A DNA stretch of 12,592 nucleotides from Acidobacteriota bacterium (lineage in GTDB: Bacteria; Acidobacteriota; UBA890; WLXD01), in contig JACZXM010000033.1 of NCBI GenBank assembly GCA_022571615.1, forward strand, positions 1 through 12,592, read 5' to 3'. Each line of letters opens with the position of its first letter. Position 1 is the stretch's first letter. The notes under the pieces were generated by a model. The model had not been told where the DNA came from and did not search any database. It saw nothing but the letters and a program-made list of their open reading frames with translations. Both the position numbers and the translations under genes were made by a program. Below, piece after piece: positions 1 through 12,592 of the stretch.

Positions 1-1
1 G

Positions 2-871
2 AGTTCGACCGCGGGCGTATGGTCCGGCCTCCTGGTGCCCCACATGGGAGCGACCGGGGCACGATTGTGTCGCGAGGCAGGGGTTGGCTATATGGACTGC
101 TGTGGCAACGCCTACCTGCGCTTCAACAGCGTAATGGTCCACATTTCCGGACTCCGTAACCGCTTTACCGAACGCAAGCAGATCCGAACATTGTTTCACG
201 ACAAGGCCACGATCCCCTTGCGTGTCTTGCTCGATCGGCCGGGTGACTGGCTGACGACACGGGAAATCGCCGATCGCGGCGGACTCAGCCTCGGCTGGGT
301 ATCGCAGATCCTGCAGCAAATGCACGCCGAAGGCTATATCGAACGCAAGCGGGGTGGGGGATCTCGCCTCCTGCGGCCCCGCCGCCTGCTGGCGGATTGG
401 CTCGAGGAGTACGCCTTCGAAGCCAACGAGGTCTTCCCCTTCCAGCTGCGCGATAGCGACTGTGCATCAGCACTCCAAAGGCTTCGTACGGTGGACGCGC
501 AGCTGTCGGACCGCTATGCCCTGACGTTGTCGTCGGCCGTACATGCGCTGCAACTCAGACCGCGCCAGCGGCGCCTACCCTACGATATTCACATCTATCT
601 GCCCGATCTGAACGAGGATCTGGAAGACACCCTCGAGATCTGGCGACGCGCGCTCGGGCTACGTCCTGCCGGCCATGGAGCGAACTGCTTCCTGGTCAAG
701 CCCTCGTATCGTCACGCCGCGTTGTTCCGGGCTCAGGCCAGCCAAGGCTTGCGCACGGTTTCCGATTTGCAGCTGTACCTGGACTTGTTTCACGCACCGG
801 GCGAGCGCTCCGCGGCCGCCGAGCGCTCACTCGCGGCGCGGCTTCCCTTCCAGGTGGCCTCACCCCACTAG
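2..871 (+). CDS. AbiEi-type (type IV toxin-antitoxin antitoxin-like) winged-helix protein, 5' end missing
   Basis: The frame is open from base 2, so the gene enters from the left and 289 codons are visible; the ATG at 35 is probably internal. The opening part (LLVPHM, then REAGVGYMDCCGNAYLRF at visible residues 24-41) matches the early 'EAGI-YLDLAGNA' segment of AbiEi-like proteins. A winged helix-turn-helix follows at about residues 70-120 (LTTREIADRGGLSLGWVSQIL). The C-terminal half carries the family-typical RYALTLSSAV and VSDLQLYLDLFHAPGE segments. Family members are DNA-binding regulators, some acting as antitoxins that repress their operon opposite an AbiEii nucleotidyltransferase. No such toxin lies downstream: the next gene is convergent. 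A partner could lie left of the window, or this may be an orphan regulator. The TAG stop is the first three bases of the dispersed repeat at 869. Family assignment is from recalled patterns; the biological role is inference. Confidence 0.72.
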   Translation, partial: SSTAGVWSGLLVPHMGATGARLCREAGVGYMDCCGNAYLRFNSVMVHISGLRNRFTERKQIRTLFHDKATIPLRVLLDRPGDWLTTREIADRGGLSLGWVSQILQQMHAEGYIERKRGGGSRLLRPRRLLADWLEEYAFEANEVFPFQLRDSDCASALQRLRTVDAQLSDRYALTLSSAVHALQLRPRQRRLPYDIHIYLPDLNEDLEDTLEIWRRALGLRPAGHGANCFLVKPSYRHAALFRAQASQGLRTVSDLQLYLDLFHAPGERSAAAERSLAARLPFQVASPH

Positions 872-879
872 CAGGCCGT
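869..879 (+). repeat. Dispersed repeat TAGCAGGCCGT, copy 1
   Basis: Exact 11-base copy in the context CTAGCAGGCCGT. Its TAG is the stop codon of the AbiEi-like gene. It faces two inverted, one-base-variant copies at 909-919 and 919-929 across the convergent gene junction. Confidence 0.8.
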
Positions 880-908
880 CGTGGGAGGGCTGCGAGCCGC
901 GATCTGCC

Positions 909-929
909 ACAGCCTGCTACAGCCTGCTA
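909..929 (-). repeat. Two overlapping inverted copies TAGCAGGCTGT
   Basis: On the minus strand TAGCAGGCTGT occurs at 929-919 and again at 919-909, sharing one base, so the top strand shows AGCCTGCTAC twice in tandem (911-930). Each differs from TAGCAGGCCGT by one C-to-T change. The TAG of the first is the stop codon of the MBL-fold gene. Confidence 0.75.
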
Positions 930-1769
930 CAGGTCGCGGGGCGGTCCGGGTACCAGCACCCCGTTGTCCTCGCTGACGCGCAGTGCCGTGACCTGAGGAT
1001 CGTGCTCGAACACCAACAACCAGCCCTCCCGTGCCGCCCGCAACAGGTAGCGCTGCTTCTCGGCCAGCGTAACCAGCGGCTCGTTGTCGTAGCTCATGAT
1101 GTAGGGCCAGCGCAGGTGTGTGGTGGTGGGCACCAGATCCGCCAGGTACAGCAGCGTGGTCTCGGGCCCACGGATCTTGACCACTTGCATCGCGGGCGTG
1201 TGCCCATCGAGAACGACGATCTCGATTCCCTCAAACAGCTCGATCTCTCCTTCCAGAAGATGCAGCCGATCGCTGCCCGCCAGAAGCGCGAAGTCCTCGG
1301 CCCGAAAGGATCCGGCGTCCTTGAGCGTCGGGTTGAACGCCCAATCCCAATGTCGTCGTTGCACATGGTGTATGGCGTTGGGAAATGTCAGCTGCAGCGT
1401 CTCCTTTTCCCGAAACGTCGTGCCCGCGGCGTGGTCGAAGTGCAAGTGGGTAAGGATCACGTCGGTGATGGCGCCGGGCTCTATCCCGCGTTCGCCCAGC
1501 GCCGCCAGCACGCCGCCGGCGGATCGATCCACCTGGAAGATTTCACGGCGCTTCTCGTCCCATTTGTCGCCGAGGCCGGTATCGACCAGGATCCGCCGGC
1601 CGGCGCCTTGGATGTACAGCAGACGCGAGGCAAGCCGCACACGATTGCGTTCGTCGGGCTCTTGGGCCCGTTCCCAGAGGGGCTTCGGTACCACTCCGAA
1701 CATCGATCCACCGTCCAGTGCAAAGGTGCCGTCGAGGATCGCGGTGACCTCGTACAGACCGATCTGCAT
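927..1769 (-). CDS. MBL-fold metallo-hydrolase
   Basis: A 280-residue protein of the metallo-beta-lactamase fold. The metal-binding signature THLHFDH is at residues 107-113 (H108, H110, D112, H113). Further likely ligands are H190 (DGHTPAM), D211 (YLADLVPTTTH) and H256 (FEHDP). The opening VTAILDGTFALDGGSMFG and the VDTGLGDKW segment (62-70) are typical of the lactonase-like/general hydrolase branch. No signal peptide is seen, so it is probably cytoplasmic. The substrate cannot be told from sequence; lactonase or esterase activity is only a family possibility. The start at 1769 is chosen because GGAG lies 7-8 bases upstream of this ATG and homologous-looking sequence begins there. An in-frame ATG at 1802 gives a longer form without comparable support. 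It lies 94 bp downstream of the DUF2207 gene on the same strand, separated by a repeat copy and an imperfect hairpin, so it may be co-transcribed or separately expressed. Confidence 0.88.
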   Translation of the reverse strand: MQIGLYEVTAILDGTFALDGGSMFGVVPKPLWERAQEPDERNRVRLASRLLYIQGAGRRILVDTGLGDKWDEKRREIFQVDRSAGGVLAALGERGIEPGAITDVILTHLHFDHAAGTTFREKETLQLTFPNAIHHVQRRHWDWAFNPTLKDAGSFRAEDFALLAGSDRLHLLEGEIELFEGIEIVVLDGHTPAMQVVKIRGPETTLLYLADLVPTTTHLRWPYIMSYDNEPLVTLAEKQRYLLRAAREGWLLVFEHDPQVTALRVSEDNGVLVPGPPRDL

Positions 1770-1809
1770 TATCTTCTCCAGGTTGGTGTCGCATCGGCTC
1801 ATGAGGGCC

Positions 1810-1850
1810 GCGCCGTGCATGGTGACGGCCCGGTCGCCCAACCACGGCGC
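1810..1850 (-). promoter_or_regulatory. Imperfect hairpin between DUF2207 gene and MBL gene
   Basis: GCGCCGTG (1810-1817) is perfectly complementary to CACGGCGC (1843-1850). Inside the 25-base loop, GGTGAC (1821-1826) pairs with GTCGCC (1833-1838) with one G.U pair. The structure starts right beside the repeat copy at 1851 and ends about 40 bases before the MBL start codon. No T-tract follows. It could end or process the DUF2207 message, or block translation of the next gene; both are inference. Confidence 0.4.
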
Positions 1851-1861
1851 TAGCAGGCCGT
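1851..1861 (+). repeat. Dispersed repeat TAGCAGGCCGT, copy 2
   Basis: Exact core. It shares a 15-base identity, CGCTAGCAGGCCGTG (1848-1862), with the copy at 4180 (4177-4191). It begins two bases beyond the TAG stop (1864-1866, read on the minus strand) of the DUF2207 gene. Confidence 0.8.
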
Positions 1862-1863
1862 GC

Positions 1864-3615
1864 CTAGAACGCGCCGCCGCCGCCGCCGCCGAATCCTCCG
1901 CCAGAGAACCCACCGCCGCCGGAGAACCCACTGCTGCCGCAGCTGCTGCGCGGGGCCGTTGTCATCGCCGTACCCAGCGCTGCCCCCATCGCTCCCATTC
2001 TGTGCGTGAACAGCCCACTGTGGAACTGCCCCGTAGGGCCGGCATACCAGCTCGGTGGCTGGTGCAAGAGCCCGCTGAACAACTTCGCCCATTGGTCGGC
2101 CACTCCGAGCGCCATCGCATAGGGGAGATACTCCTCGAACGTGGTCGCGGGCAGATCGAGCGTCTTGAAGCGCTCCGCTTCGGTGCGGCCGAGGAACTCC
2201 TCGAAGCCCTTGACATCCAGAAAGCGAGCCCGGCCCACGGCGGTCCGCGCCGGCATGAAAGCGGCGAACACGCCCACGGCCAGGCTGGTGAATGGTGCTG
2301 CTATCAGGAACGCCGGCTGGCCGAGCGCCAGGCCCAGCGTTATCCAGATGGGCAGAACCAGCGCCGCAACCACGAACCAGAAGATTCGCACTCGATCCGG
2401 TCGTGCGCGGAACAGCCGCTGCTCGGTGAGGCGGTCGTACAGCTCGCTCTTGATCTCGCTGATGCGCTTGTAGAAGCGTGTCTCGAGGTCCTCCATGGTC
2501 ACCTCGTCAGCGCGCTCGAACAGCCCCTCGAGGATCTTGCTCTCGTAGGGGCGAAGGGAGCTGTCGGCCTGTTTCAGGCGCACGAAGGTCGTCGCGGTGG
2601 AGTCGAAGAGCCATCCCTCCCGCACGCTCTCTTCGATGCGCAGGTACCCCCGAACCGCCAGATCAATGACCGTGGCCACGATGTCCCTGAGATCGACCTT
2701 CTCGTCAATCAGCGTGCCGACCTCGGCTGGAAGCATTCCCTCGGGCGGCTCGTAGCGCACCATGATCGACCGATCCAGCGACGGATCGCGGCCACGGCGC
2801 CAGAACACCGCGAGCATGAGCAGGAAAACCGCGACCGGGGTGGCCAGCGGCCAGTTGTCGGCCAAGAGCTCGCTAGCGCGCTCGGCCAGGGTGGGCCGGC
2901 GGACCGTGCCGGGTGTCCAGCCGACGACGATGGTAAGCCCTTCCCCCGGCTCCAGCTTCCGCCCCGCCCGGACGAGCACCTCGTTGTGTGCCGGTCGTTC
3001 GATCCGCACCCTATCGTCACCGCTCCCGTAGGGACCGACGAGGCCGCGCACCCACGGCTCGCCTGCCACCGCCTCCGGCAATACGACGCGCACGGAAGCG
3101 GATAGAATTGGTACCGTCCAGCGATCGCCCGTGACGTTCCAGTACAGCTGATCGTGGGCATCGAAGCCTTCCGCGGCCTCGGGGAATCGCAGTGCACGCC
3201 GTACGCTATAACGCAGTACGACCGTGCGCGACGCATCGCGGGCATCGGGGATCCAGACCTTGAATCGGAACTCGACGCCCCGACGGCGGGTCTCGTTGCG
3301 GAGCGCGGCACCGTGCCCGTCGGTCACAGAGAGCGGGGAGAGGCGCAGGTCGTAGTCCAGTCCCCACGGGGTCTCGAACTCCACCGCGATGTCGCGGTAG
3401 ATCCCATTGAAGCCGCCGTCGAAGCGGAAAGTCAGCCGCTCGGTCACCTCGATGGCGCCGTCCTCGTGTACCTGGATCGACGCATCAAAGCTCTCGAGCC
3501 AGTAACGGCGCGAGGCCTCCTGTGCAATCGACTCCTGAGCGCAGGCAACCAGCGCCAAGAAAGCCAGCAGAAAGATTGCGGTCACCTGGCCATGGCGATA
3601 CGGCCTGTCAAGCAT
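1864..3615 (-). CDS. DUF2207-family membrane protein with Gly-rich tail
   Basis: A 583-residue envelope protein of the DUF2207 (YciQ-like) family. In order: an N-terminal signal segment (about 10-31) whose LVAC at 22-25 fits a lipobox, with SIAQ/E as an alternative signal peptidase I site. Next comes an extracytoplasmic beta-rich domain (about 38-235; YWLESFDASIQVHEDGAIEVTERL, NGIYRDI), then a transmembrane helix (about 255-272) and a cytoplasmic-type domain (280-405). Two further membrane helices (about 409-432 and 434-454) follow, then FEEFLGRTEAERFK (471-484) and a terminal stretch of almost only Gly, Ser and Phe (559-583), which is usual for the family. The start is the ATG at 3615: it follows GGAGGTGG at good spacing and overlaps the lemA stop in ATGCTTGA (8 bp), indicating translational coupling. 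LemA-DUF2207 pairs are common in bacteria. The biochemical role of the family is not established. Confidence 0.88.
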   Translation of the reverse strand: MLDRPYRHGQVTAIFLLAFLALVACAQESIAQEASRRYWLESFDASIQVHEDGAIEVTERLTFRFDGGFNGIYRDIAVEFETPWGLDYDLRLSPLSVTDGHGAALRNETRRRGVEFRFKVWIPDARDASRTVVLRYSVRRALRFPEAAEGFDAHDQLYWNVTGDRWTVPILSASVRVVLPEAVAGEPWVRGLVGPYGSGDDRVRIERPAHNEVLVRAGRKLEPGEGLTIVVGWTPGTVRRPTLAERASELLADNWPLATPVAVFLLMLAVFWRRGRDPSLDRSIMVRYEPPEGMLPAEVGTLIDEKVDLRDIVATVIDLAVRGYLRIEESVREGWLFDSTATTFVRLKQADSSLRPYESKILEGLFERADEVTMEDLETRFYKRISEIKSELYDRLTEQRLFRARPDRVRIFWFVVAALVLPIWITLGLALGQPAFLIAAPFTSLAVGVFAAFMPARTAVGRARFLDVKGFEEFLGRTEAERFKTLDLPATTFEEYLPYAMALGVADQWAKLFSGLLHQPPSWYAGPTGQFHSGLFTHRMGAMGAALGTAMTTAPRSSCGSSGFSGGGGFSGGGFGGGGGGAF

Positions 3616-4177
3616 TCCAGTCCACCTCCACCGCGCGTCGCTCGAGGGCGTTGTCGAGCTTGAAGAATTGACGAGGGGCGAAGCCGGCAAGCCGCGCCAC
3701 GAGGAGATCGGGAAAACGCGCCAGATTCGTGTTCAGATCCCGCACCACGGCATTGTAGTAGCGTCGCGCGTCCTGCAGCCGGTCCTCGATCTCGGTCAAC
3801 TGCTCGATTAGCTGGCCGAACCGCTCGCTTGCTTTCAATTCAGGGTAGCTCTCGGCCAGAGCGAAGAGGCCTCGCAGGGCCCCGACCAGTTGGCCTTCTG
3901 AAGCCGCGACACCGCCTTCGGGCTGCACTTGCTCGCGCGCTCGGACTGCGGTGGCACGGAGGCGGATCACCTCGTCCAGCGTTCGCTGTTCGTGCCCGGC
4001 GTAGCCCTTGACCGTCTCCACCAGGGCCGGGACCAGGTCATGCCGCCGCTTGAGCTGCGCGTCGATGTCGGCCCAAGCCGCCTGGGCGCGCTTCCCTAGG
4101 CCTACCATCCGGTTGTAGGCGTGCACGCTCCAACCCACCACAGCGGCCGCGGGAACCAGCCACAGCACTGGGTTCAC
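3608..4177 (-). CDS. lemA: LemA family protein
   Basis: A 189-residue LemA protein: a short N-terminal membrane anchor (VNPVLWLVPAAAVVGWSVHAYN, about residues 1-22) followed by a long helical domain. Family hallmarks are RAQAAWADIDAQLKRRHDL (31-49), VPALVETVKGYAGHE (50-64), LKASERFGQL (114-123) and EIEDRLQDARRYYNAVVRDLN (129-149), ending with FPDLLVARLAGF and FFKLDN. The anchor topology puts the helical bundle on the outer face of the inner membrane; the function is unknown. I chose the GTG at 4177 because LemA proteins typically begin 'MNPVL...'. The alternative GTG at 4222 adds 15 unrelated residues and is immediately preceded by a TAA. Neither has a good Shine-Dalgarno sequence: the region just before the 4177 start is occupied by the dispersed repeat. 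It overlaps the DUF2207 gene by 8 bp and lies 181 bp after rho. Confidence 0.9.
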   Translation of the reverse strand: MNPVLWLVPAAAVVGWSVHAYNRMVGLGKRAQAAWADIDAQLKRRHDLVPALVETVKGYAGHEQRTLDEVIRLRATAVRAREQVQPEGGVAASEGQLVGALRGLFALAESYPELKASERFGQLIEQLTEIEDRLQDARRYYNAVVRDLNTNLARFPDLLVARLAGFAPRQFFKLDNALERRAVEVDWNA

Positions 4178-4179
4178 GC

Positions 4180-4190
4180 TAGCAGGCCGT
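4180..4190 (+). repeat. Dispersed repeat TAGCAGGCCGT, copy 3
   Basis: Exact core, two bases upstream of the chosen lemA start codon (lemA is on the minus strand). It shares 15 bases with the copy at 1851 and the 14 bases TAGCAGGCCGTGGT with the copy at 10999. It fills the place where a ribosome binding site would be expected. Confidence 0.8.
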
Positions 4191-4245
4191 GGTGCAAGTG
4201 TGGTGGGTCTGGCAAGCAGCACTTACGGGCGAGGGCAAGGAGCGA

Positions 4246-4275
4246 CGACGATAGCAATGTCTGTGTCCATCGTCG
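4246..4275 (-). promoter_or_regulatory. Inverted repeat in the rho-lemA gap
   Basis: CGACGAT (4246-4252) is complementary to ATCGTCG (4269-4275) across a 16-base loop. It lies about 70 bases before lemA and may be a leader structure or operator. The stem is short, so support is weak. Confidence 0.25.
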
Positions 4276-4291
4276 AGGAGTCGTGACACTG

Positions 4292-4310
4292 GCGGCATCG
4301 GACATGCCGC
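4292..4310 (-). terminator. Hairpin downstream of rho, candidate terminator
   Basis: GCGGCAT (4292-4298) and ATGCCGC (4304-4310) form a perfect 7-bp stem with a 5-base loop, about 48 bases after the rho stop codon on the minus strand. There is no T-tract after it, so it may protect or define a 3' end rather than act as a full intrinsic terminator. Confidence 0.4.
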
Positions 4311-4358
4311 GTACCAGCGAGCGGGGATACTGGAACCTCGACGCGAAGCGCCACCGCA

Positions 4359-5762
4359 TCATCCCGAGAACGTGTCGAGAAACTCCCGGTTGTCCTTCGT
4401 CTGTCGCAGGCGCTTGAGCAACAGCTCCATGGCCTCTTCGGCCGATACCGCAGCCAGCGCCTTGCGTAGCATCCAGATGCGCTGCAGATCGTTGGCTTCG
4501 ACCAGCAGCTCCTCCTTGCGAGTTCCTGAACGATTGATATCAATAGCTGGGAAGATTCGCTTGTCGGCCAGCTTGCGGTCGAGCACGAGCTCCGAGTTTC
4601 CGGTTCCCTTGAACTCCTCGAAGATCACCTCGTCCATCCGGCTGCCGGTGTCGACCAGCGCGGTAGCGATGATGGTCAGCGAGCCGCCCTCCTCGACGGC
4701 GCGAGCGGAGCCAAAGAACTTCTTCGGCTTCTCGAGCGCGTTGGCGTCGACACCACCGGTCAAAACTCGGCCGGAAGTGGGAGTAACGGTATTGTGCGCC
4801 CGAGCCAGACGGGTGATCGAGTCGAGGAGGATCACCACGTCATTGCCGCTTTCGACCATGCGCCGGGCCTTCTCGAGCACGATCGCACCGACCGCGACAT
4901 GCCGTGTCGCAGGTTCGTCAAAGGTCGAAGCCACGACCTCACCGCGCACCGAACGCCGCATGTCGGTGACTTCCTCGGGCCGTTCATCGATGAGCAGGAC
5001 CAGCAGCTTGACGTCCGGATGGTTCACCGCAATGCCCTTGGCGATCGCCTGCAGGATCATCGTCTTGCCGGCCCGCGGCGGCGACACGATCAGCGCTCGC
5101 TGGCCAAAACCCAACGGACACAGCAGGTCGATGACCCGGCCGATGGTGTCCTCGTCTTCGGTCTCCACCTTGAGCATCCGGTCCGGGTGCAGCGGGGTGA
5201 GGCTCTTGAACTGCGGCCGGTCCAACGCGCTGGTCGGCGTCTCTCGATTAATGGCATCGATTTGCACCAATGCAAAGTACTTCTCGCCCGACTTGGGAGG
5301 CCGGATGCTGCCGATGATGGTATCGCCGGTGCGCAGACCAAAGCGCCGAATCTGGGTAGGGGAGACGTAGACGTCCTCGGAGCCGGGAAGATACGAGTTC
5401 TCCGCCGCCCGGATGAACCCATAGCCGTCCGGCAGGCGCTCCAGGACGCCCTCCCGGTACACCAGGCCGTACTGGGCCGCCTGAGCTCGCAGACAGGCTT
5501 CGATGAGGACCCGCGGCTCCATGTGCGTGGCGTTCTCGACCTCGAGCTCTTTGGCGATCTCGAGCAACTCGGCGGGGCGGGCTTCCATCAGGTCGTCGAC
5601 GGAATGTCCGTTCGCCACCACAGCCAGAATGGCGGGATCTTCTTCGCGAGGCGGTACGAAAGTCTGCGGTTTGCGAGCGCGTCCGCTACGTCCACGGCCC
5701 CCGCGCGGGCGGCGCCGACCCCGGCGCCTGCGCTGCTGTTGCTGCTGCTGCTGCTCTGCCAT
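4359..5762 (-). CDS. rho: Transcription termination factor Rho
   Basis: A 467-residue hexameric RNA helicase that ends transcription in the cytoplasm. In order: a low-complexity basic extension (1-32: seven Gln, then a run rich in Arg and Gly), a Rho N-terminal helical domain (about 40-95) and a cold-shock-like RNA-binding domain (about 97-172; [16 protein letters not shown]). The ATPase core has Walker A SPPRAGKT (227-234), [12 protein letters not shown] (257-268), Walker [11 protein letters not shown] (309-318), the Q-loop region around 330-342 and the R-loop [10 protein letters not shown] (345-354). All key motifs look intact. It is longer than the 419-residue E. coli protein, mainly because of the N-terminal extension. 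The ATG at 5762 is preceded by GAGG at about 9 bases; a longer in-frame form up to 5855 lacks family similarity. A promoter and a leader of about 175 nt precede it. Confidence 0.97.
5729..5753 (-). repeat. CAG/CAA codon run encoding poly-Gln in Rho
   Basis: On the minus strand, codons 4-10 of rho read CAG four times, CAA once, CAG twice. This short trinucleotide tract could vary in length by slippage in steps of one residue without breaking the frame. Confidence 0.7.
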
Positions 5763-5849
5763 CGAGTGAAGCCTCGTTTGGGAGGATCCTGTGGCGCGGT
5801 CCTCGATCGCGGAGGAACCGTCGGCTCGACAAGGGATTGCACTTCGAGG

Positions 5850-5865
5850 TCGCACGAGGGTGCGA
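5850..5865 (-). promoter_or_regulatory. Hairpin in rho leader
   Basis: TCGCAC (5850-5855) and GTGCGA (5860-5865) form a perfect 6-bp stem with a 4-base loop, about 90 bases before the rho start and inside the predicted leader RNA. In other bacteria rho is autoregulated by termination in its leader; a similar role here is inference. Confidence 0.4.
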
Positions 5866-5941
5866 TCAGGCGGAAACGGAAACCGGCGGGCGCCGCGAAT
5901 CCGACTCAGAAAAAAGGGAAGGGCGCCCGGCCGACCCTGTT

Positions 5942-5971
5942 ATTGTCTGCGGCCGCCCCGCACACTGTCAA
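5942..5971 (-). promoter_or_regulatory. Sigma70-type promoter for rho
   Basis: On the minus strand there is a perfect TTGACA (-35, top-strand bases 5966-5971), an 18-base spacer, and GACAAT (-10, top-strand bases 5942-5947; 4 of 6 consensus bases). Transcription would start near 5935, giving a leader of about 175 nt before the rho ATG. It lies in the 252-bp gap after the cytochrome c gene. Confidence 0.6.
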
Positions 5972-5987
5972 GCCCTAACATCACGCG

Positions 5988-6010
5988 GCCCGAATGCGGC
6001 CTGCTCGGGC
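5988..6010 (-). terminator. Hairpin after cytochrome c gene, candidate terminator
   Basis: GCCCGA (5988-5993) and TCGGGC (6005-6010) form a perfect 6-bp stem starting 5 bases beyond the cytochrome stop codon on the minus strand. The 11-base loop holds AGCAGGCCG-like sequence (5997-6005), perhaps a decayed copy of the dispersed repeat. There is no T-tract. Confidence 0.35.
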
Positions 6011-6014
6011 TCCG

Positions 6015-6455
6015 TTAGCTGCCGGTAGATTGCTTGACGAAGGTCTCGATCACGTAGGCCGCAACGGCGAGAATCTCGTCCTCCTCCAGCAGGTCAGCGA
6101 AGGGTTCCATCTCGGTGCCTTCGATCCCGTCGCGGACCACACCGGCGACCTCGGACGCCGTGCCCTCGCTGACGGACTCCCATTCGCCCGCGGTGAGGTC
6201 ACGCGGCTTCGATTCGAGGAACTTGGCCGCCGGACCGTCTCCCTTGCCTTGGTTGCCGTGACACGGCTGGCATTGGCTCAGATAGACCTCCTCGCCCAAC
6301 TCCAGGACTGCCGCATCGAACTGCTGCGGCTCGGCCACTGCGGCGGGGGACGGGACGGCCAGCGCACCCGCGAGCAACTCATGCCGCGACACCAGGAGCG
6401 CCACGAGTATCAGCCCGAGGACGACCCACAATCCCGACCAATGACCTTCGCGCAC
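6015..6455 (-). CDS. Membrane-anchored monoheme cytochrome c
   Basis: A 146-residue class I c-type cytochrome. An N-terminal hydrophobic segment (about 7-23, WSGLWVVLGLILVALLV) is a signal anchor, so the heme domain faces the periplasm. Covalent heme attachment is at CQPCH (C62, C65, H66), and the likely sixth ligand is M116 in GTEMEPF. HGNQGKGDGPAA after the heme site and DEILAVAAYVI near the end are typical of small electron-transfer cytochromes. Partner redox enzymes are not in the window. The start is a GTG at 6455: AGGAGG lies 8 bases upstream, whereas the GTG two codons earlier would be only 2 bases from it. It lies 42 bp downstream of the GH113-like gene on the same strand, consistent with one transcript. 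Confidence 0.88.
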   Translation of the reverse strand: MREGHWSGLWVVLGLILVALLVSRHELLAGALAVPSPAAVAEPQQFDAAVLELGEEVYLSQCQPCHGNQGKGDGPAAKFLESKPRDLTAGEWESVSEGTASEVAGVVRDGIEGTEMEPFADLLEEDEILAVAAYVIETFVKQSTGS

Positions 6456-6462
6456 TCGCACA

Positions 6463-6468
6463 ACCTCC
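6463..6468 (-). promoter_or_regulatory. Shine-Dalgarno AGGAGG deciding the cytochrome start
   Basis: The minus strand reads AGGAGG, then TTGTGCGA, then GTG. Spacing favours the second of two in-frame GTG codons. Confidence 0.6.
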
Positions 6469-6497
6469 TGTCAACACTACGGATTCTAGCAATATGA

Positions 6498-8045
6498 CTA
6501 GCGACGACGGTCCACTCGCCCGAGGCGAGTACGGATCGTGTCGCCGACCCTTGCCGCCAGGGCGAGGTAGGCGTTGTCAAGAGCGTCCTCGTCGGTCACC
6601 GGCGTAGATTGCCAACCCAGGTCAGTATATCCGCTGCCGGGCTGCAGCAGCACGGCAAAGGGTTCAATCGCGCGGTGCTCGCTTTGGGTGGTCAGCTTCC
6701 ACAGAATGAATCCGCGCAAGGTATCGAACGCGCCGGCCTGGACGACATTGCTCAGGGCCTGCAACGCGGCGACGCGCTCGCTTGCATCGGTGGGCTGCGT
6801 CGCCCAGTGCACGCAGGTGAGCGAATCGGGCTCCGGCGCGGCTTCCGCCGCGGTTTCGAGCACCTCGACACGGCTGTACGAGTACGGGCGGACCGTGCTG
6901 CCCAGCCAACGCGTCCAGCCGAGCTCGAGCAAGATTGTCGGACGCGAGGGCACGACGCTCGCCAGGCGCTCGCCGATTCGTCGCCACGCTTGTTCCATCC
7001 GCGGCACTCGGGATTCACTCTCCAGACCGTACAGACCGAGGGGGAAGTAGGCATTCACGCCGACATACTCGAGCGCGTCCCAGAACCCGACCTGGTCGTA
7101 CTGGTCGAAGTTGGCGCCGTAGGTCAGCCCCCCGCCATACATGTCGCGAACCGCGGAGATGAGGCGTCGCCAGAACCGCTCGTAGCGGCCCCGACGAGCG
7201 TTGAGGTGCCCGAGGTTGCGTGGATTACCGCCTGTGATCGCATGTACCCAGGCACGTCGTACCTGTTCCTCGGCGCCAAGCATGGCCTCGAGATCCCGGT
7301 AACGACCGCCGTCCAGCTGCACCAAGTCGTCGCCGCGACCCTCTTCCATGACTTGCGCCGCGCAACGCACCAGCTCGCTGCGAACCGCAGCCACGCGCTC
7401 CGGATCGATCCAATACGCGTACAGGTCGGGCAACTGCTGAACCGGTAGGGTAGAGGCCAGGGAGCTGAGCTCGTTGCCCACAGCCAGCAGGTCGACGCCT
7501 TCGCGAGCCGCCATTCCCGCACCCCAGAGAACGAAATCCCGGTAACGCTGCATCCACAGCTCGAGCTGATCGTCTCGTGGCCAGATCATGCCGTGCCACA
7601 GGTGCCGATTTGCCGACAGGCCGTGCTCGAGCGCCACGCGCATAACCAGCACCACCCGTAGGCCGGCACGCTTGGCGGCGCGGATCTCCGATACCACCCA
7701 CGGCGCCTCGCGCTCGTACCACAGCTCGGCCTCGTCCCAGCGCTGTTGCCGCGCGTACAGGGTCACCTCGATACTGTCCAGGCCGGCCTCCGCTACCGCA
7801 TCGACCCAACGGTCGTGGTCCGGCTCGTTGACCTGAATGCCACCGAAAAACGTGGGCGGCACAAGAGCAGCCCGCACGGCCGTCCCAGGGCCGATCGGCC
7901 CTGGGACCCGGGCGCGGGCCTGTGTGCCGACCGCCAGGAGAGCATAAGCGCCCACAGCGCCCCCCAGGAGGTACCACCGCCACCGCACGGCCCGAACAGG
8001 GCTCGGCGGGGCCGTGCGCGGCCGAGGCGTACTATTAGTTTCCAT
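6498..8045 (-). CDS. Membrane-anchored GH113-like glycoside hydrolase (TIM barrel)
   Basis: A 515-residue protein. A basic N-terminus (VRAVRWRW) precedes one membrane helix (about 25-41), so the rest lies outside the inner membrane as an anchored or secreted domain. The body reads as a TIM barrel like glycoside hydrolase family 113: FFGGIQVNEP (66-75), SIEVTLYARQQ (91-101), VVLVMRVAL (131-139), then VGNELSSL with N191-E192 as the likely acid/base. LTYGANFDQYDQVGFWDALEYVGVNAYFPL spans 307-336, and ILLELGW contains E374 as the likely nucleophile. Known GH113 enzymes are beta-mannanases, but the substrate here is unproven and the length exceeds a minimal barrel. The ATG at 8045 is chosen over an upstream TTG because the membrane segment follows naturally. 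It lies 120 bp after the transglycosylase and 42 bp before cytochrome c. Confidence 0.78.
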   Translation of the reverse strand: METNSTPRPRTAPPSPVRAVRWRWYLLGGAVGAYALLAVGTQARARVPGPIGPGTAVRAALVPPTFFGGIQVNEPDHDRWVDAVAEAGLDSIEVTLYARQQRWDEAELWYEREAPWVVSEIRAAKRAGLRVVLVMRVALEHGLSANRHLWHGMIWPRDDQLELWMQRYRDFVLWGAGMAAREGVDLLAVGNELSSLASTLPVQQLPDLYAYWIDPERVAAVRSELVRCAAQVMEEGRGDDLVQLDGGRYRDLEAMLGAEEQVRRAWVHAITGGNPRNLGHLNARRGRYERFWRRLISAVRDMYGGGLTYGANFDQYDQVGFWDALEYVGVNAYFPLGLYGLESESRVPRMEQAWRRIGERLASVVPSRPTILLELGWTRWLGSTVRPYSYSRVEVLETAAEAAPEPDSLTCVHWATQPTDASERVAALQALSNVVQAGAFDTLRGFILWKLTTQSEHRAIEPFAVLLQPGSGYTDLGWQSTPVTDEDALDNAYLALAARVGDTIRTRLGRVDRRR

Positions 8046-8165
8046 AAGATCTCTTATCACGATTCGAGACAAAGGTCCCGAGATCTAGCCTTGGGCGCCG
8101 AGCCGGTTCGGTTACACGGCAAGGCGACCCGCTCGCACCCGCCACGGGCTACGTGCAGCCGACCC

Positions 8166-9368
8166 CTACTCGGCCAGTGCCGGGATTCGCAGCCGCTCGC
8201 CGATCCGTATCAAGGTCCGCCGGCCCATGTTGTTGGCACGCTGGATCGTCGCCACGTTGGTGCGGTAGCGGCGCGCGATGATCGTCAAATTCTCACCGCG
8301 GGTCACGCGATGAAGGACGAACTTGGGCTTCGGCGGCACTTTGCGAACGCGCAGCATCATGCCGTCGGCCACCGCTTCGTCCCAGAACAGCGCGTTGTCA
8401 CGGATGACACGCCACGGATCCGACTGTAGCGACTCGGCGATTCCCTCGAGGGTCTCGCCCTCTTGCACACGGTGCACCTTGTACTCGCCCTCCCACTGCA
8501 GGGGAATCCGCAACGTCATTCCGGTCGGCAGCGTCTGCAAGTGCCACAACCCGTTGTGCTGGCGTAGCGCGTCCAAGTCCACATCCAGGGTAAACGCGAT
8601 GTTGAAGTAGTTATCGCCATGCCGCGAGCGATACAGGAGATCTGAGCCGCTGAGCGTAAAGAGCTGCTCGCGCGGAGCGGCCGGATACGCTATCAACTGC
8701 CCCGGCCTGAGATCTCGCCGCGCCAAATAGGGGTTGTGGAGTCGCAGGTCGAGCAGCGACATCCCGAGCCGCCGCGATACCGTCCACCAGTCCTCATCCT
8801 CCCTCGCCGTCGTCAACCGCAGCTGGCTGGCGTGGTGCCGGATCGATCGTTCGTAGAGCTTGAGCATGGTGCGGTAGTAGCCCACACCGAGAACGTACTG
8901 CAGCGATTCGAGCCGCATCGCCCGTCCCCGACCCACGTTGCCAGGGCCCCCGTTGTATGCCGCCAACGCGTAGTCTTCACGCTCGAAACGCCGCACCATC
9001 TGCGCCAGGTACTTGACGCCCGCCTCGATGTTGGTCGATACGCCCAGCGAGCGAAACGTCGCCGGCATCACTTGGAAGTAGCCCCGCGCTCCGGCCCACG
9101 AGGTCAAGTTGGCATTGCCGCCCGACTCGTACATGCAGACCGCTCGTGCCAGGTCGTAATCGAGGCCGAATCGGTCGCTGGACCGTCGGATCTCGTCCTC
9201 GATCTCGATCGTCTTGCGGTAGATACCCAAGATCGTCGGCGAGAAGTCCTCCACCGGCAGGACGTCCTCGAACGCGGACTCCTGCGCCGATATAGGTACG
9301 GGCGGGCCGACCAGCACCGCCATCCATGCCGCGGCGCCAATGCCCAACCACGCGCTACGTCTCACCAC
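8166..9368 (-). CDS. Lytic transglycosylase (SLT domain) with C-terminal LysM repeats
   Basis: A 400-residue secreted peptidoglycan-cleaving enzyme. The signal peptide is residues 1-29 (cleavage after ISAQ). The SLT domain is at about 60-175: catalytic Glu81 in MYESGGNANLTSWAGARG, YFQVMPATF (97-105), IEAGVKYLAQM (114-124) and ALAAYNGGPGNV (134-145). Four LysM-like units follow: degenerate at about 193-229, 246-289 and 298-341, and a clear one at 352-397 (RVTRGENLTIIARRY, TNVATIQRANN, IGERLRIP). It would cleave glycan strands in the periplasm, like MltD-type enzymes. The start is a GTG at 9368, 7 bases after GAGG, immediately followed by a second possible GTG; upstream in-frame codons to 9674 overlap the divergent gene and are not protein-like. 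It is divergent from an M23 endopeptidase across a 240-bp spacer. Confidence 0.92.
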   Translation of the reverse strand: MVRRSAWLGIGAAAWMAVLVGPPVPISAQESAFEDVLPVEDFSPTILGIYRKTIEIEDEIRRSSDRFGLDYDLARAVCMYESGGNANLTSWAGARGYFQVMPATFRSLGVSTNIEAGVKYLAQMVRRFEREDYALAAYNGGPGNVGRGRAMRLESLQYVLGVGYYRTMLKLYERSIRHHASQLRLTTAREDEDWWTVSRRLGMSLLDLRLHNPYLARRDLRPGQLIAYPAAPREQLFTLSGSDLLYRSRHGDNYFNIAFTLDVDLDALRQHNGLWHLQTLPTGMTLRIPLQWEGEYKVHRVQEGETLEGIAESLQSDPWRVIRDNALFWDEAVADGMMLRVRKVPPKPKFVLHRVTRGENLTIIARRYRTNVATIQRANNMGRRTLIRIGERLRIPALAE

Positions 9369-9491
9369 GGCACCCCCTCGTTGATGACTCTCGCCCAGAC
9401 GCAAAAGGGACTCACAGCCGAATCTTGTAGCAATTCCTTCCCCCCCGACGCAACCACAACCGTCTCTTGTCTCGATCCAGCGCCAATGCCC

Positions 9492-9503
9492 CCGGCGCGC
9501 CGG
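9492..9503. promoter_or_regulatory. 12-bp perfect palindrome upstream of the M23 promoter
   Basis: CCGGCGCGCCGG is self-complementary and ends 4 bases before the -35 box. It could bind a dimeric regulator, but GC-rich palindromes also arise by chance in such DNA. Confidence 0.25.
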
Positions 9504-9507
9504 CGCC

Positions 9508-9535
9508 TTGAAAATGCCCCGGAATTCCCTATAAT
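9508..9535 (+). promoter_or_regulatory. Near-consensus sigma70 promoter for the M23 peptidase
   Basis: TTGAAA (9508-9513), a 16-base spacer, and a perfect TATAAT (9530-9535). Start of transcription is expected near 9542, giving a 5' leader of about 67 nt. It is the best promoter in the window. Confidence 0.75.
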
Positions 9536-9608
9536 ACCGCCCGATCGTCCGGCCGACCCTAATTGTGGTCCGCTGTTTTCCGTCGCCTCCTGATTTCCGG
9601 AACTCTGG

Positions 9609-10985
9609 GTGAACCTGAGAGTCCGTCTGAAGCTGGGATCCCTGTGGGACCTGCCCCTGCAGGTTACGGCCCATACGGTGCTGCAGCTACAGCTGCGCTG
9701 GCCGGCACTGGCGCTGGCCGTTCTTGGCACGGCCGGGGTCACGGTCGCCTTGCACCCGCCGGTACCTGTCTCTGCCCCGTTCCGTGCCTGGGTCGGTCCC
9801 TCGGAGCCAGTGCCGGAGTTGCCGAAACCGTGGCCGCAATCGCTCGCCGTGGAGGCCGCCCGTGTGCTCGAGGGACGGTTCGCGCCGGGCAGCACGCTAG
9901 CCCGAGAGCTCTCACGAGCCGGAGTCGAGCGCGGCACGGCGCATCAGGTCATGCTCGCCGCCGCCCAGGCCATCGACCTGCGTCGGATCCGCGACGGGCA
10001 GCGGTACCGCTTGTACTTCGACGGCAGCGACCGCCTCACGGCGTTGCGTTACCAGGTGAATCGCCAGACCGCGTGGTTCGTCGCTCATGAGCAGGACGGC
10101 TGGACGACGAGCAAGGTGTCGATCCCGGTGCGGATTCGACCGACGTTCATCTCGGCCACCATCGTCGACAGCCTGCACCGGGCGCTGGAGGGCAATACAC
10201 GGGACGGCACTTCCCGCCAGGAGCTGCTCTTGAAGGTCGCCGACATCTATGGCTGGGACGTTGATTTCAGCTACGACCTGCGCCGCGGCGATCGCCTCGA
10301 CCTGGTCGTAGAGGAGCGGTTCGTCGAGGGTGCGTTTAGCGGCTACGGCGACATTCTCGCGGCGGAGTTCAGCCTTGGGAGTCGGATATTGCCAGTGATC
10401 CGGTTCCAGGACGCCGGAAGCCACGTCTCCTACTTCCGGCCTGGCGGCGAGTCCGTGCGACGTACGTTCCTGCGATCGCCGGTCAAGTACACGCGCATCT
10501 CCTCGCGCTTCAGCCGGCGTCGCGTCCACCCGGCGACCGGTGTGGCGCGCGCCCACCGCGGCATCGACTACGTTGCCTATCCCGGCACTCCGGTGCAGGC
10601 CACCGCCGATGGTATCGTGGTGGAGGCGCGGTACGGCCGCGAGCCCGGGCGCTACGTGCGCATCCGCCATGGCGGCTCGTACAGCTCCGTATACATGCAC
10701 CTGTCGCGCTTCCATCCCAACGCCAAGGTAGGGGTCGAGATTCGCCAGGGCGACATCATCGGTTACGTCGGCAAGAGCGGCAACGCCACTGGCTACCACC
10801 TGCACTACGGGCTCGAGCAGGCCGGACGCTACGTGGACCCGATCTCGATCCAGTTCCCTACCGCCGAGCCGGTCCCAACGAACGAGTGGGAACTATTCGC
10901 AAGCCAGCGCGGTGAGTGGCTCACGGTTCTGCGCCAGGGGCAGGCCAATCTCGGCCTTCAGATCGCCGGCGCCGGCGGCATGTAA
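9609..10985 (+). CDS. M23-family peptidoglycan endopeptidase (MepM-like)
   Basis: A 458-residue zinc metallopeptidase expected to cut peptide cross-links in the cell wall. A hydrophobic segment (about 31-48) anchors or exports it. A LysM/OapA-like region follows (about 93-165: GSTLARELSRAGVERGTAHQ, RIRDGQRYRLYFD), then a linker domain with ADIYGWDVDFSYDLRRGDRLDLVVEE (about 211-236) typical of MepM/Csd3 proteins. The catalytic LytM domain is at about 300-412. Zinc ligands are H316 and D320 in HRGIDY and H399 in YHLHY; H397, and H364 in YMHLS, complete the site. All are intact. The GTG at 9609 has only a weak GGA at about -10; no better start is seen. It is driven by the promoter at 9508 and divergent from the lytic transglycosylase. 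Confidence 0.93.
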   Translation: MNLRVRLKLGSLWDLPLQVTAHTVLQLQLRWPALALAVLGTAGVTVALHPPVPVSAPFRAWVGPSEPVPELPKPWPQSLAVEAARVLEGRFAPGSTLARELSRAGVERGTAHQVMLAAAQAIDLRRIRDGQRYRLYFDGSDRLTALRYQVNRQTAWFVAHEQDGWTTSKVSIPVRIRPTFISATIVDSLHRALEGNTRDGTSRQELLLKVADIYGWDVDFSYDLRRGDRLDLVVEERFVEGAFSGYGDILAAEFSLGSRILPVIRFQDAGSHVSYFRPGGESVRRTFLRSPVKYTRISSRFSRRRVHPATGVARAHRGIDYVAYPGTPVQATADGIVVEARYGREPGRYVRIRHGGSYSSVYMHLSRFHPNAKVGVEIRQGDIIGYVGKSGNATGYHLHYGLEQAGRYVDPISIQFPTAEPVPTNEWELFASQRGEWLTVLRQGQANLGLQIAGAGGM

Positions 10986-10998
10986 GCGCACAATACCG

Positions 10999-11009
10999 TA
11001 GCAGGCCGT
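10999..11009 (+). repeat. Dispersed repeat TAGCAGGCCGT, copy 4
   Basis: Exact core, 13 bases after the M23 peptidase TAA stop, in the 92-bp gap before the DNA ligase. It extends to TAGCAGGCCGTGGT, shared with the copy at 4180. Confidence 0.8.
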
Positions 11010-11044
11010 GGTAGGCGCGCGGCTTTCTGCGCCCGCAGTGGCAC

Positions 11045-11062
11045 CCCGTTGAGAAATACGGG
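11045..11062 (+). promoter_or_regulatory. Small hairpin before the ligase gene
   Basis: CCCGT (11045-11049) and ACGGG (11058-11062) form a 5-bp stem with an 8-base AT-rich loop, ending 15 bases before the ligase ATG. It is too short to assign a role; no clear promoter or strong ribosome binding site is seen in this gap. Confidence 0.2.
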
Positions 11063-11077
11063 TTAAAGTCCGAGCCC

Positions 11078-12592
11078 ATGCGGGCTCTGGCACTGACGCT
11101 CGAAACCATCGCCGGTCACGGCGCCACCGAGGGTAAAATCCACGCGGCGGCGGCCTATCTCGCCAGCCAGGACGCTTCCAAGGTGGGTATGGCAGCACGC
11201 TTCCTCTCTGGCACTCCCCTACCCCCGGGCACGCCCGCCACCAACGTTGGGCGCGCGACCCTGGTCGAGCTGGTCGCCGCCTTTGCCGGCAAAGATCGTC
11301 GCGAGCTGCTGCGGCTTGCCACCCAGCGCGGCGACCTCGGCGTTGCCGTCGCCGAGGTCCTCGAGAACAGCCCACGCATGAGCGGCACCAGGTTGTCGCT
11401 GCGGGAGGTGGCGGAAGCACTCTTGGCCCTCGGCAGCATCGGTAGCACCCGCCGCAAGCAGCATTTGCGTTCGATGCTCGAGCGCTGTACGCCGCTCGAG
11501 GCCAAGTACCTCACCAAATTGTTGCTCGGCTCGATGCGCACCGGAATGCAGGCGACCCGGGTCGAGGAGTCCGTGGCGCTGGCCTTCGATCAGCCGATCT
11601 CGGCCGTACGGCGGGCCCACATGTTGCTCGGTGACATCGGTATGGCCGCCGAGCGGGCTGCCGGTGATAGTCTCGAGACGGTCTCCCTGAAAGCCTTCCG
11701 ACCCGTCCGCGTGATGCTGGCGCACCCCTGCCACAGCACCGCGGAGGTCCTCGACCTGACCCCGCTCCCGGTCATCGCCGAGGACAAGTTCGATGGCATC
11801 CGAGTGCAGGCACATATCGTCGACGGCAAGATGCGCCTGTACTCTCGAACGCTCGAGGATTCGACGCATTTCTTCCCCGAGATCCGATCAGCGGCGCCGC
11901 AACTGCCGGGTGAGTGGATCCTCGATGGCGAGGTGGTCGCCTGGGTCGACGGCCGCGCGCTGTCCTTCAACGCGCTCCAGCGACGCCTGGGCCGCAGGCA
12001 GGTTCCGCTGACCCTGTTGCTCGATGCACCGGTCATCTTTCTCGCCTTCGATGTTCTGCGGGCCGAGAGCAACGATCTGATCGATGTACCTCTCCGGGAA
12101 CGCAAGCAGGTGCTCGCGGAGCTTCCTCTGGACGGTGCCGTCCGGCGCGCGCCGTGGGAGTTGCTCGAGCAGGCCGAGGACCTGGCGGGCTGCTACGCCG
12201 CGGCCACAGCCCGCGGTAACGAAGGCGTGGTGTTCAAGGCCCCTGACAGCCTCTACCGTCCCGGTTCGCGCGGGCGCTCCTGGCTCAAGCTCAAGCACCC
12301 GCTAGGCACCATCGATGTAGTGGTAACCGGTGCGGAGTATGGTCGCGGCAAGCGTGCCGGACTGCTCTCTGATCTCGTGTTCGCAGTGCGCGCTCCCGAC
12401 GGGCTGGTGGACTCGGGACGTGCCTACAGCGGCTTGACCGATGAGGAAATCCGGCACTTGACCACCACTTTCAAGCAGACCACGCTTCGTACCGACGGCA
12501 CTCTTCGTCGCGTCGAGCCGCGCATCGTCCTGGAAGTCGCCTTCGACGATATTCGACCCAGCTCGCGGTATCCGAGTGGCTTCGCACTGCGC
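11078..12592 (+). CDS. ATP-dependent DNA ligase (LigB-type), 3' end missing
   Basis: 505 codons run from the ATG at 11078 off the right edge. The protein has an N-terminal DNA-binding domain (about 1-205) and a nucleotidyltransferase core. Motif I is EDKFDGIR (235-242) with K237 as the adenylated lysine, then RLYSRTLEDSTHFFPEI. Motif III is FLAFDVLR, motif IV NEGVVFKAPDSLY, and motif V SWLKLKHPLGTIDVVVTGAEYGRGKRAG. An OB-fold follows up to SSRYPSGFALR, which normally lies near the C-terminus, so only about 10-40 residues should be missing. It seals nicks in DNA using ATP. The size matches the roughly 500-residue LigB group found in some bacteria alongside the essential NAD-dependent LigA, suggesting a repair role (inference). 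Upstream spacing from the M23 gene is 92 bp with a repeat copy between. The ribosome binding site is weak. Confidence 0.94.
   Translation, partial: MRALALTLETIAGHGATEGKIHAAAAYLASQDASKVGMAARFLSGTPLPPGTPATNVGRATLVELVAAFAGKDRRELLRLATQRGDLGVAVAEVLENSPRMSGTRLSLREVAEALLALGSIGSTRRKQHLRSMLERCTPLEAKYLTKLLLGSMRTGMQATRVEESVALAFDQPISAVRRAHMLLGDIGMAAERAAGDSLETVSLKAFRPVRVMLAHPCHSTAEVLDLTPLPVIAEDKFDGIRVQAHIVDGKMRLYSRTLEDSTHFFPEIRSAAPQLPGEWILDGEVVAWVDGRALSFNALQRRLGRRQVPLTLLLDAPVIFLAFDVLRAESNDLIDVPLRERKQVLAELPLDGAVRRAPWELLEQAEDLAGCYAAATARGNEGVVFKAPDSLYRPGSRGRSWLKLKHPLGTIDVVVTGAEYGRGKRAGLLSDLVFAVRAPDGLVDSGRAYSGLTDEEIRHLTTTFKQTTLRTDGTLRRVEPRIVLEVAFDDIRPSSRYPSGFALR

Follow-up and report, generated by a model that had tools for sequence, protein, structure and literature searches.

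Dispersed TAGCAGGCYGT repeats in an Acidobacteriota genome as probable tips of a palindromic miniature transposable element at CTAG sites

The stretch analyzed here (the window) comprises 12,592 nucleotides from an Acidobacteriota bacterium (assembly GCA_022571615.1, contig JACZXM010000033.1, positions 1 to 12,592), in which an 11-mer, TAGCAGGCYGT, recurs at the borders of genes. A simple codon-usage gene caller returned sensible genes in the window. The Pfam names of the neighbors include Rho, LemA, DUF2207, M23 peptidase, a MarR-like protein, and a LysM/SLT transglycosylase, and an MBL-fold protein is encoded at 927-1841 (-). Six copies of the 11-mer had been listed in a preliminary description of the sequence, four on the plus strand (869, 1851, 4180, and 10999) and two on the minus strand (909-919 and 919-929), and all six were recovered. 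The view that they are not due to chance also held, as six window matches with up to one mismatch were found against 0.34 expected, and none of 200 shuffles reached six. The 11-mer is very probably the tip of the terminal inverted repeat (TIR) of a non-autonomous DNA transposon of about 276 bp that resembles a miniature inverted-repeat transposable element (MITE) and inserts at CTAG.

The description had called for a genome-wide count. In the draft genome (3,198,469 bases in 527 contigs, 71% complete), TAGCAGGCYGT was matched 70 times in forward and 89 times in reverse orientation, giving 159 matches, far above random, compared with 1 + 5 = 6 for the reversed pattern used as a control; chance or local duplication as the source of the repeat was rejected on this comparison. 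The four CCGT copies share one orientation in the window, as had been noted, whereas the genome-wide counts of 70 and 89 show no such preference, and the suggested strand-biased chromosome motif is unsupported, with the reservation that contigs are oriented arbitrarily. A 33-base arm starting with the motif was matched exactly in four contigs of two Acidobacteria bacterium metagenome-assembled genomes, B66T1B5 and B71T1B8, in a search from which records very near the window's own genome were possibly excluded.

The flanks of many 11-mer copies agree far past 11 bases, and the search for a longer parent showed that the motif belongs to a palindromic element. A full copy of about 276 bp consists of a 33-bp TIR, hairpin A in forward orientation, hairpin B reversed, and the second TIR; hairpin B is homologous to hairpin A (~74%) in the opposite orientation. 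Full-length copies measure 275-277 bp and are 90-95% identical to the query copy. Inward-facing arm pairs in the same genome form a size series: the outer stem by itself gives ~50 bp, a single module 126 or 169 bp, and both modules ~276 bp. Many 11-mers represent single arms with little else recognizable. Several copies stop at contig ends, so the true copy numbers are probably higher. The copy at locus L006:51-330 folds with -186.4 kcal/mol as RNA (z -15.4) and -105.1 kcal/mol as DNA (z -12.8). TIRs, a length within roughly 50-600 bp, many dispersed copies, and no coding capacity (judged by length and structure only) were thus all observed, in line with the MITE-like identity proposed earlier. 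A known RNA family was rejected, since scanning the window against Rfam 15 gave no match at gathering score and seven element loci (E up to 0.5) gave four matches, each well below its own gathering score.

No intact copy was found in the window, where the element is represented by three short remnants and a half-element (Table 1). The hairpin at 4207..4317 scored 27.0 bits with a covariance model of the inner hairpin (R1), with an E-value of 1.1e-5 within the window and 0.0027 in the genome-wide search, and together with its arm (4179..4317) it takes up the greater part of the lemA-rho spacer (lemA at 3608-4168, -; rho at 4359-5621, -). The TAG triplets at 869-871 (+) and 929-927 (-) are the predicted stop codons of two convergent genes, and the right CTAG of the remnant at 1850..1867 contains the stop codon (1864-1866, -) of the DUF2207 gene (1864-3585). 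For the MBL-fold gene, an alignment of the best 30 of 120 proteins, the query's own record included, showed 26 ending in the same column and four ending 1-5 residues later. This stop lies at the usual C-terminus and therefore probably predates the element, with no visible truncation. Apart from the repeats, if rho started upstream of the called start at 5621, the open frame there would give its product an extended N-terminus rich in glutamine and in arginine/glycine (~5690-5762, -).

Table 1. Repeat-derived features of the window (positions of the whole stretch).
Feature	Position	Strand	Remarks
Decayed copy, outer stem only, ~49 bp	868..930	.	Arms 869-879 (+) and 909-919 (-); between two convergent genes
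Tandem echo of the right arm, 10-bp	919-929	-	Within the 868..930 feature
Remnant CTAG-CAGGCCGTGC-CTAG	1850..1867	+	Between two minus-strand genes
Left arm of the TIR	4179..4212	+	Differs from the 34-nt consensus by 2 mismatches
Inner hairpin, module B type, partly decayed	4207..4317	+	Covariance model R1
Solo terminal-repeat fragment	10998..11012	+	13 bp past the stop (10985) of the M23-peptidase gene
End of a second repeat family (CACCCCGTTGAGAAAT...)	11042..11066	+	Consensus similar to the right end of the IS1380 copy on contig C324

The four bases preceding CAGG were inspected in 119 unique arms from selected stretches of the window's genome: the first was C in 87 arms, the second T in 105, the third A in 112, and the last G in 116, with the exact CTAG in 77. 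This agrees with the earlier suggestion of insertion-sequence (IS) end fossils inserted at CTAG. The outer base is variable but the G at -1 almost invariant, so this G is either part of the element or a strict requirement. Equal counts of A at -1 and T at -4 would be expected from a 4-bp YTAR duplication; the former was observed in 1 and the latter in 21 of the 119 arms, making such a duplication unlikely for this family. From these arm sequences, a TA duplication within CTAG appears to fit best for the own-genome form.

Among 130 unique 11-mers, the TAG of the motif is the stop codon of a predicted gene in 37. Excluding 27 near stretch ends, the 103 usable 11-mers were distributed between tandem genes (42), convergent genes (28), and divergent genes (19), with 9 inside predicted coding sequences (CDS) and 5 with one flank unknown. 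The claim that the repeat occurs only at gene boundaries is therefore nearly right, the exceptions being these 9 copies in the fetched own-genome stretches. Convergent spacers accounted for 28 of 89 intergenic copies compared with 8 of 59 motif-free spacers. Counted as insertion events in 121 non-redundant own stretches, 139 events comprised 44 at a stop codon, 79 in a spacer, and 16 inside a CDS, while the non-element CTAG sites of the same stretches comprised 14, 50, and 66, respectively (inside versus outside CDS, Fisher p 1.5e-12); these proportions do not stand for the genome as a whole, since each stretch was picked for its repeat copies and a decayed element may have been counted as two events. 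For the events bounded by an exact CTAG (n=97), the counts were 35, 58, and 4 (p 8.7e-16 for CDS avoidance). The element strongly avoids gene interiors. In addition, C precedes the TAG stop in 41 of 52 element-formed stops and in 18 of 56 other TAG stops.

In relatives, the ends of the element exhibited considerable variation. Of 22 loci checked, 18 carried inverted ends around the core and 4 did not; 13 of the 18 span 263-284 bp, and the remaining five are shorter or longer. The ends form several sets that cannot be aligned over their full length, some of which share the first bases CTAGCAGG; examples are CTAG-CAGGCCGTGGTGGAAG, CTAG-CAGGCTGCTGAAAAACTCCCG, CTAG-GAGCCTGTCCGAGTAATAG, and TWA-GGGCCCGTCAGGAAATAAG. 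Identical 3-bp flanks were observed in all 10 readable copies of relative G187 (4 TAA/TAA and 6 TTA/TTA; an eleventh copy is masked). The target-site duplication of MITEs is thus present in this relative, which argues for DDE-type transposition. Relative G034 has 15 matches to R1, and the seven copies examined among them are 276-278 bp long, with CTAG at 6 of 7 left ends and all 7 right ends. Defining a coding-like open frame by at least 140 open codons and a GC content at third codon positions of at least 0.86, the TAG of at least one end closes such a frame in 6 of the 7 copies, and both ends do so in two. At least one such end was found in 2 of 3 copies of relative G191, where the right ends are mutated in 2 of 3. 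The stop-codon habit therefore extends past the genome of the window.

The interior was recognizable over a wider range than the tip. The 18-base tip of the element (up to 1 mismatch) was present in 7 of 60 genomes including the window's own, six of the seven belonging to the same order, and a looser form was found in 19 of 297 Acidobacteriota genomes. The 138-base half-element was matched in 9 of 11 chosen genomes. Between families of the same order, identity over the complete element with its ends is 79-89%. The sole coding match in this comparison (68%) joins related, non-orthologous genes and is therefore no measure of genome divergence; L109 and L155 were rejected as the same locus and read as related regulators. 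For families f3 and f28, most alignments among the matches listed start inside the element, at 74-88% identity, with the terminal repeat unmatched.

A total of 42 non-redundant cores (25 A-type and 17 B-type) were collected, and 22 of the A-type cores (families f1, f2, f3, and f28) were aligned, three A-type and all 17 B-type cores being left out. In their shared structure, 88.7% of cells are paired and 21 of 38 pairs changed on both sides. The covariation score was 0.301; shuffles scored 0.095 and slid versions no higher than 0.076, although the structure was written from the same sequences, which favors it over the slid versions, and the shuffles do not correct for relatedness. Tandem G.A mismatches were observed in internal loop 1 (columns 27/91, G.A in 19 of 22; columns 28/90, A.G in 21 of 22) and internal loop 2 (columns 42/75, G.A in 20 of 22; columns 43/74, A.G in all 22). 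With an E-value limit of 1e-4, R1 found matches in 46 of the 199 Acidobacteriota genomes searched, the E-values being rough owing to a shortened calibration. In 22 of the 46, spread over 10 families, the best match reached 1e-14 or better; 8 of these 22 contributed sequences to the model, and 14 are independent of it. Matches above 1e-14, such as those of family f23, were given no weight, as they may be other GC-rich hairpins. A search of a plasmid collection yielded one weak 47-base match and a search of a phage collection none; no viral contig carried the core pattern.

The description had also proposed looking for a transposase with matching ends, and none was found. In the window's genome, at 71% completeness, no match to Y1_Tnp, DDE_3 (IS630), or DDE_Tnp_4 was detected, and DDE_Tnp_1 matched two transposase genes, one of IS1380 and one of ISNCY. 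The IS1380 copy on contig C324 was rejected as the driver because its ends are different and resemble the second repeat family, and the IS630 of relative G007 was likewise rejected for its different ends. Ten relatives yielded 10 DDE_Tnp_1 loci in 6 genomes; four TIR strings gave only chance-level matches (5 mismatches) at these loci, and none of the 10 is an IS5 copy bounded by the TIRs of the element. Y1_Tnp was matched in 1 of 7 genomes searched, with chance-level TIR matches only at that locus.

Other repeats and transposases were observed along the way. The IS1380 copy on C324 has CTAG at its borders, and the consensus of the second repeat family, CACCCCGTTGAGAAAT...CTAG (window 11042-11066; L118:2236-3952), matches the right end of this copy; this likeness suggests that the second family consists of small repeats derived from IS1380. 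A third, sibling family starting with TAGCAGCCCGTGGCAGAAGTGGCGTGGG was found at L035 (-, around 167), L067:892, and L013:1725, in the latter two within ~110 bases of an arm of the element described here. The IS630 of G007 (L122:2232-3439) is CTAG-bounded and directly adjoins a small hairpin element (TAGCAGCGGTCTGAAGAACTCCCG...) at that element's CTAG. In G152, long inverted repeats and CTAG bound a DDE_Tnp_1 transposase gene (L271:about 93-2003), whose ends likewise differ from those of the element. Finally, TAGCAGGCYGTTGAAAAA occurs in 10 IMG/VR stretches (L124-L133), in 6 of them within ~110 bases of the stretch end, as if assemblies break there.

In the mechanism we propose, cleavage at the TIRs and insertion at CTAG would be the work of a putative DDE-type transposase that acts in trans. 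Where the target CTAG holds a TAG stop codon, the upstream gene would keep an intact TAG, because the element starts with G after the shared TA. Insertions within genes would be lost, presumably by selection, and copies on or just past stop codons would remain; over time, fragments would be reduced to the 11-mer alone. The stop-codon habit would then largely be accounted for by target choice and the loss of insertions within genes. Several results weigh against this reading. No transposase with matching ends was found in the draft genomes searched with four Pfam families, where a partner could have been missed, and no empty insertion site was found in the data examined. The own-genome flanks read alike under a TA duplication, no duplication, or a longer CTAG duplication. 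Stop codons are hit at only about 2-fold the rate expected from the available CTAG sites, which does not reach significance (p 0.067; p 0.053 for exact-CTAG events), and the interior is better conserved than the TIRs, the reverse of an ordinary MITE.

Regarding the driver, two candidates are compatible with the MITE-like transposon. The family IS5 produces target duplications such as YTAR or TWA, and ends such as GAGCCTGTCCGAG resemble its ends. An IS5-family transposase, the ends of the element varying with the IS5 subgroup that serves each host, would agree with the 3-bp TAA/TTA flanks of G187 and with the IS5 transposase that G034 carries in two overlapping frames; the unequal A and T counts around the own-genome arms and the lack of an IS5 copy with the TIRs at the 10 loci speak against it, leaving it quite possible but somewhat short of an even call. 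A driver of the IS630/Tc1-mariner type, with a TA duplication inside CTAG as in RUP and Correia elements, would explain the near-constant G before CAGG (116 of 119 arms) beside a variable outer base, and the G007 IS630, itself CTAG-bounded, sits at the CTAG of a hairpin element. Yet no DDE_3 match was found in the window's genome, the G007 copy has different ends, and the G187 flanks match over 3 bp rather than TA, so that this candidate is on the unlikely side. An element like the repetitive extragenic palindromic (REP) sequences was among the identities first suggested; one moved by a Y1 tyrosine transposase (RAYT/TIRYT) is very improbable. The termini of GTAG REPs often give flanking open reading frames their TAG stop codon and TIR-flanked Y1 transposases are reported in Acidobacteria, according to PMC3733652, but the scarcity of Y1_Tnp described above, the matching 3-bp flanks in G187, and the different size and symmetric ends contradict it. 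A RAYT-type REP was rejected, as no Y1 gene flanked by the repeat was found in the seven genomes searched and the element is not a 20-40 bp palindrome with a GTAG/CGTC tag at one end.

Alternatively, the element could be a structured RNA or terminator that serves the host at the 3' ends of genes and has been spread or retained because of this service. The strong folding, the compensatory changes, and the enrichment in convergent spacers are consistent with this. However, wobble pairs, excluding one nearly fixed G-T column, showed no strand bias (30 G-T versus 25 A-C, p 0.59), which is mildly against a pure RNA role; with the Rfam matches at most weak and the stop-codon bias near CTAG availability, this alternative appears improbable. 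The MITE-like transposon has an interior that is recognizable across the phylum where its ends are not. Selection on the interior together with turnover of the ends is a simpler reading than horizontal transfer, because transfer of the whole element would have brought the ends along; recombination between elements could also produce a conserved interior with differing ends. Tentatively, and in the knowledge that it may well be wrong, we propose a phylum-wide module of two homologous hairpins, its conserved internal loops carrying tandem G.A mismatches and a CAA bulge, that may be selected in at least 10 Acidobacteriota families and ride on MITEs whose terminal repeats have repeatedly been replaced. 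The interior rather than the ends would then persist as a mobile passenger, switching transposases and coming to rest on stop codons.

Several known systems resemble the element in part. RUP and Correia/NEMIS are short, gene-less, and TIR-bounded, with TA at the termini, high copy numbers, and long stem-loops (PMC2229807). The element shares these features and differs from RUP and Correia/NEMIS in being longer (~276 bp) and GC-rich, in its two homologous inverted hairpins and CTAG preference, and in an interior conserved across families while the TIRs differ. GTAG-tagged REPs are likewise palindromic and mostly downstream of genes, with termini that often form TAG stops (PMC3733652); TAG stops supplied by repeat ends are thus already known in kind. 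These REPs measure 20-40 bp, have a one-end tag, and come with a Y1 transposase, whereas the element has symmetric ends, no Y1 gene found in the own genome, and matching 3-bp flanks in a relative. IS5-derived MITEs are similar in the 3-bp TAA/TTA flanks of the G187 copies and in the IS5-like ends of some relatives, but no partner IS with the same ends was found. Searches of open-licence papers by sequence string and topic gave nothing on this element among the titles listed.

What sets the element apart is that conservation is stronger in its interior than at its ends. In MITEs the ends are expected to persist while the middle is lost; in this lineage the pattern appears reversed across a phylum. 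If the hairpins are under selection, a role in transposition or at gene 3' ends would be indicated. The CTAG preference offers a simple account of harmless landing on stop codons and may explain other repeats that supply TAG stops.

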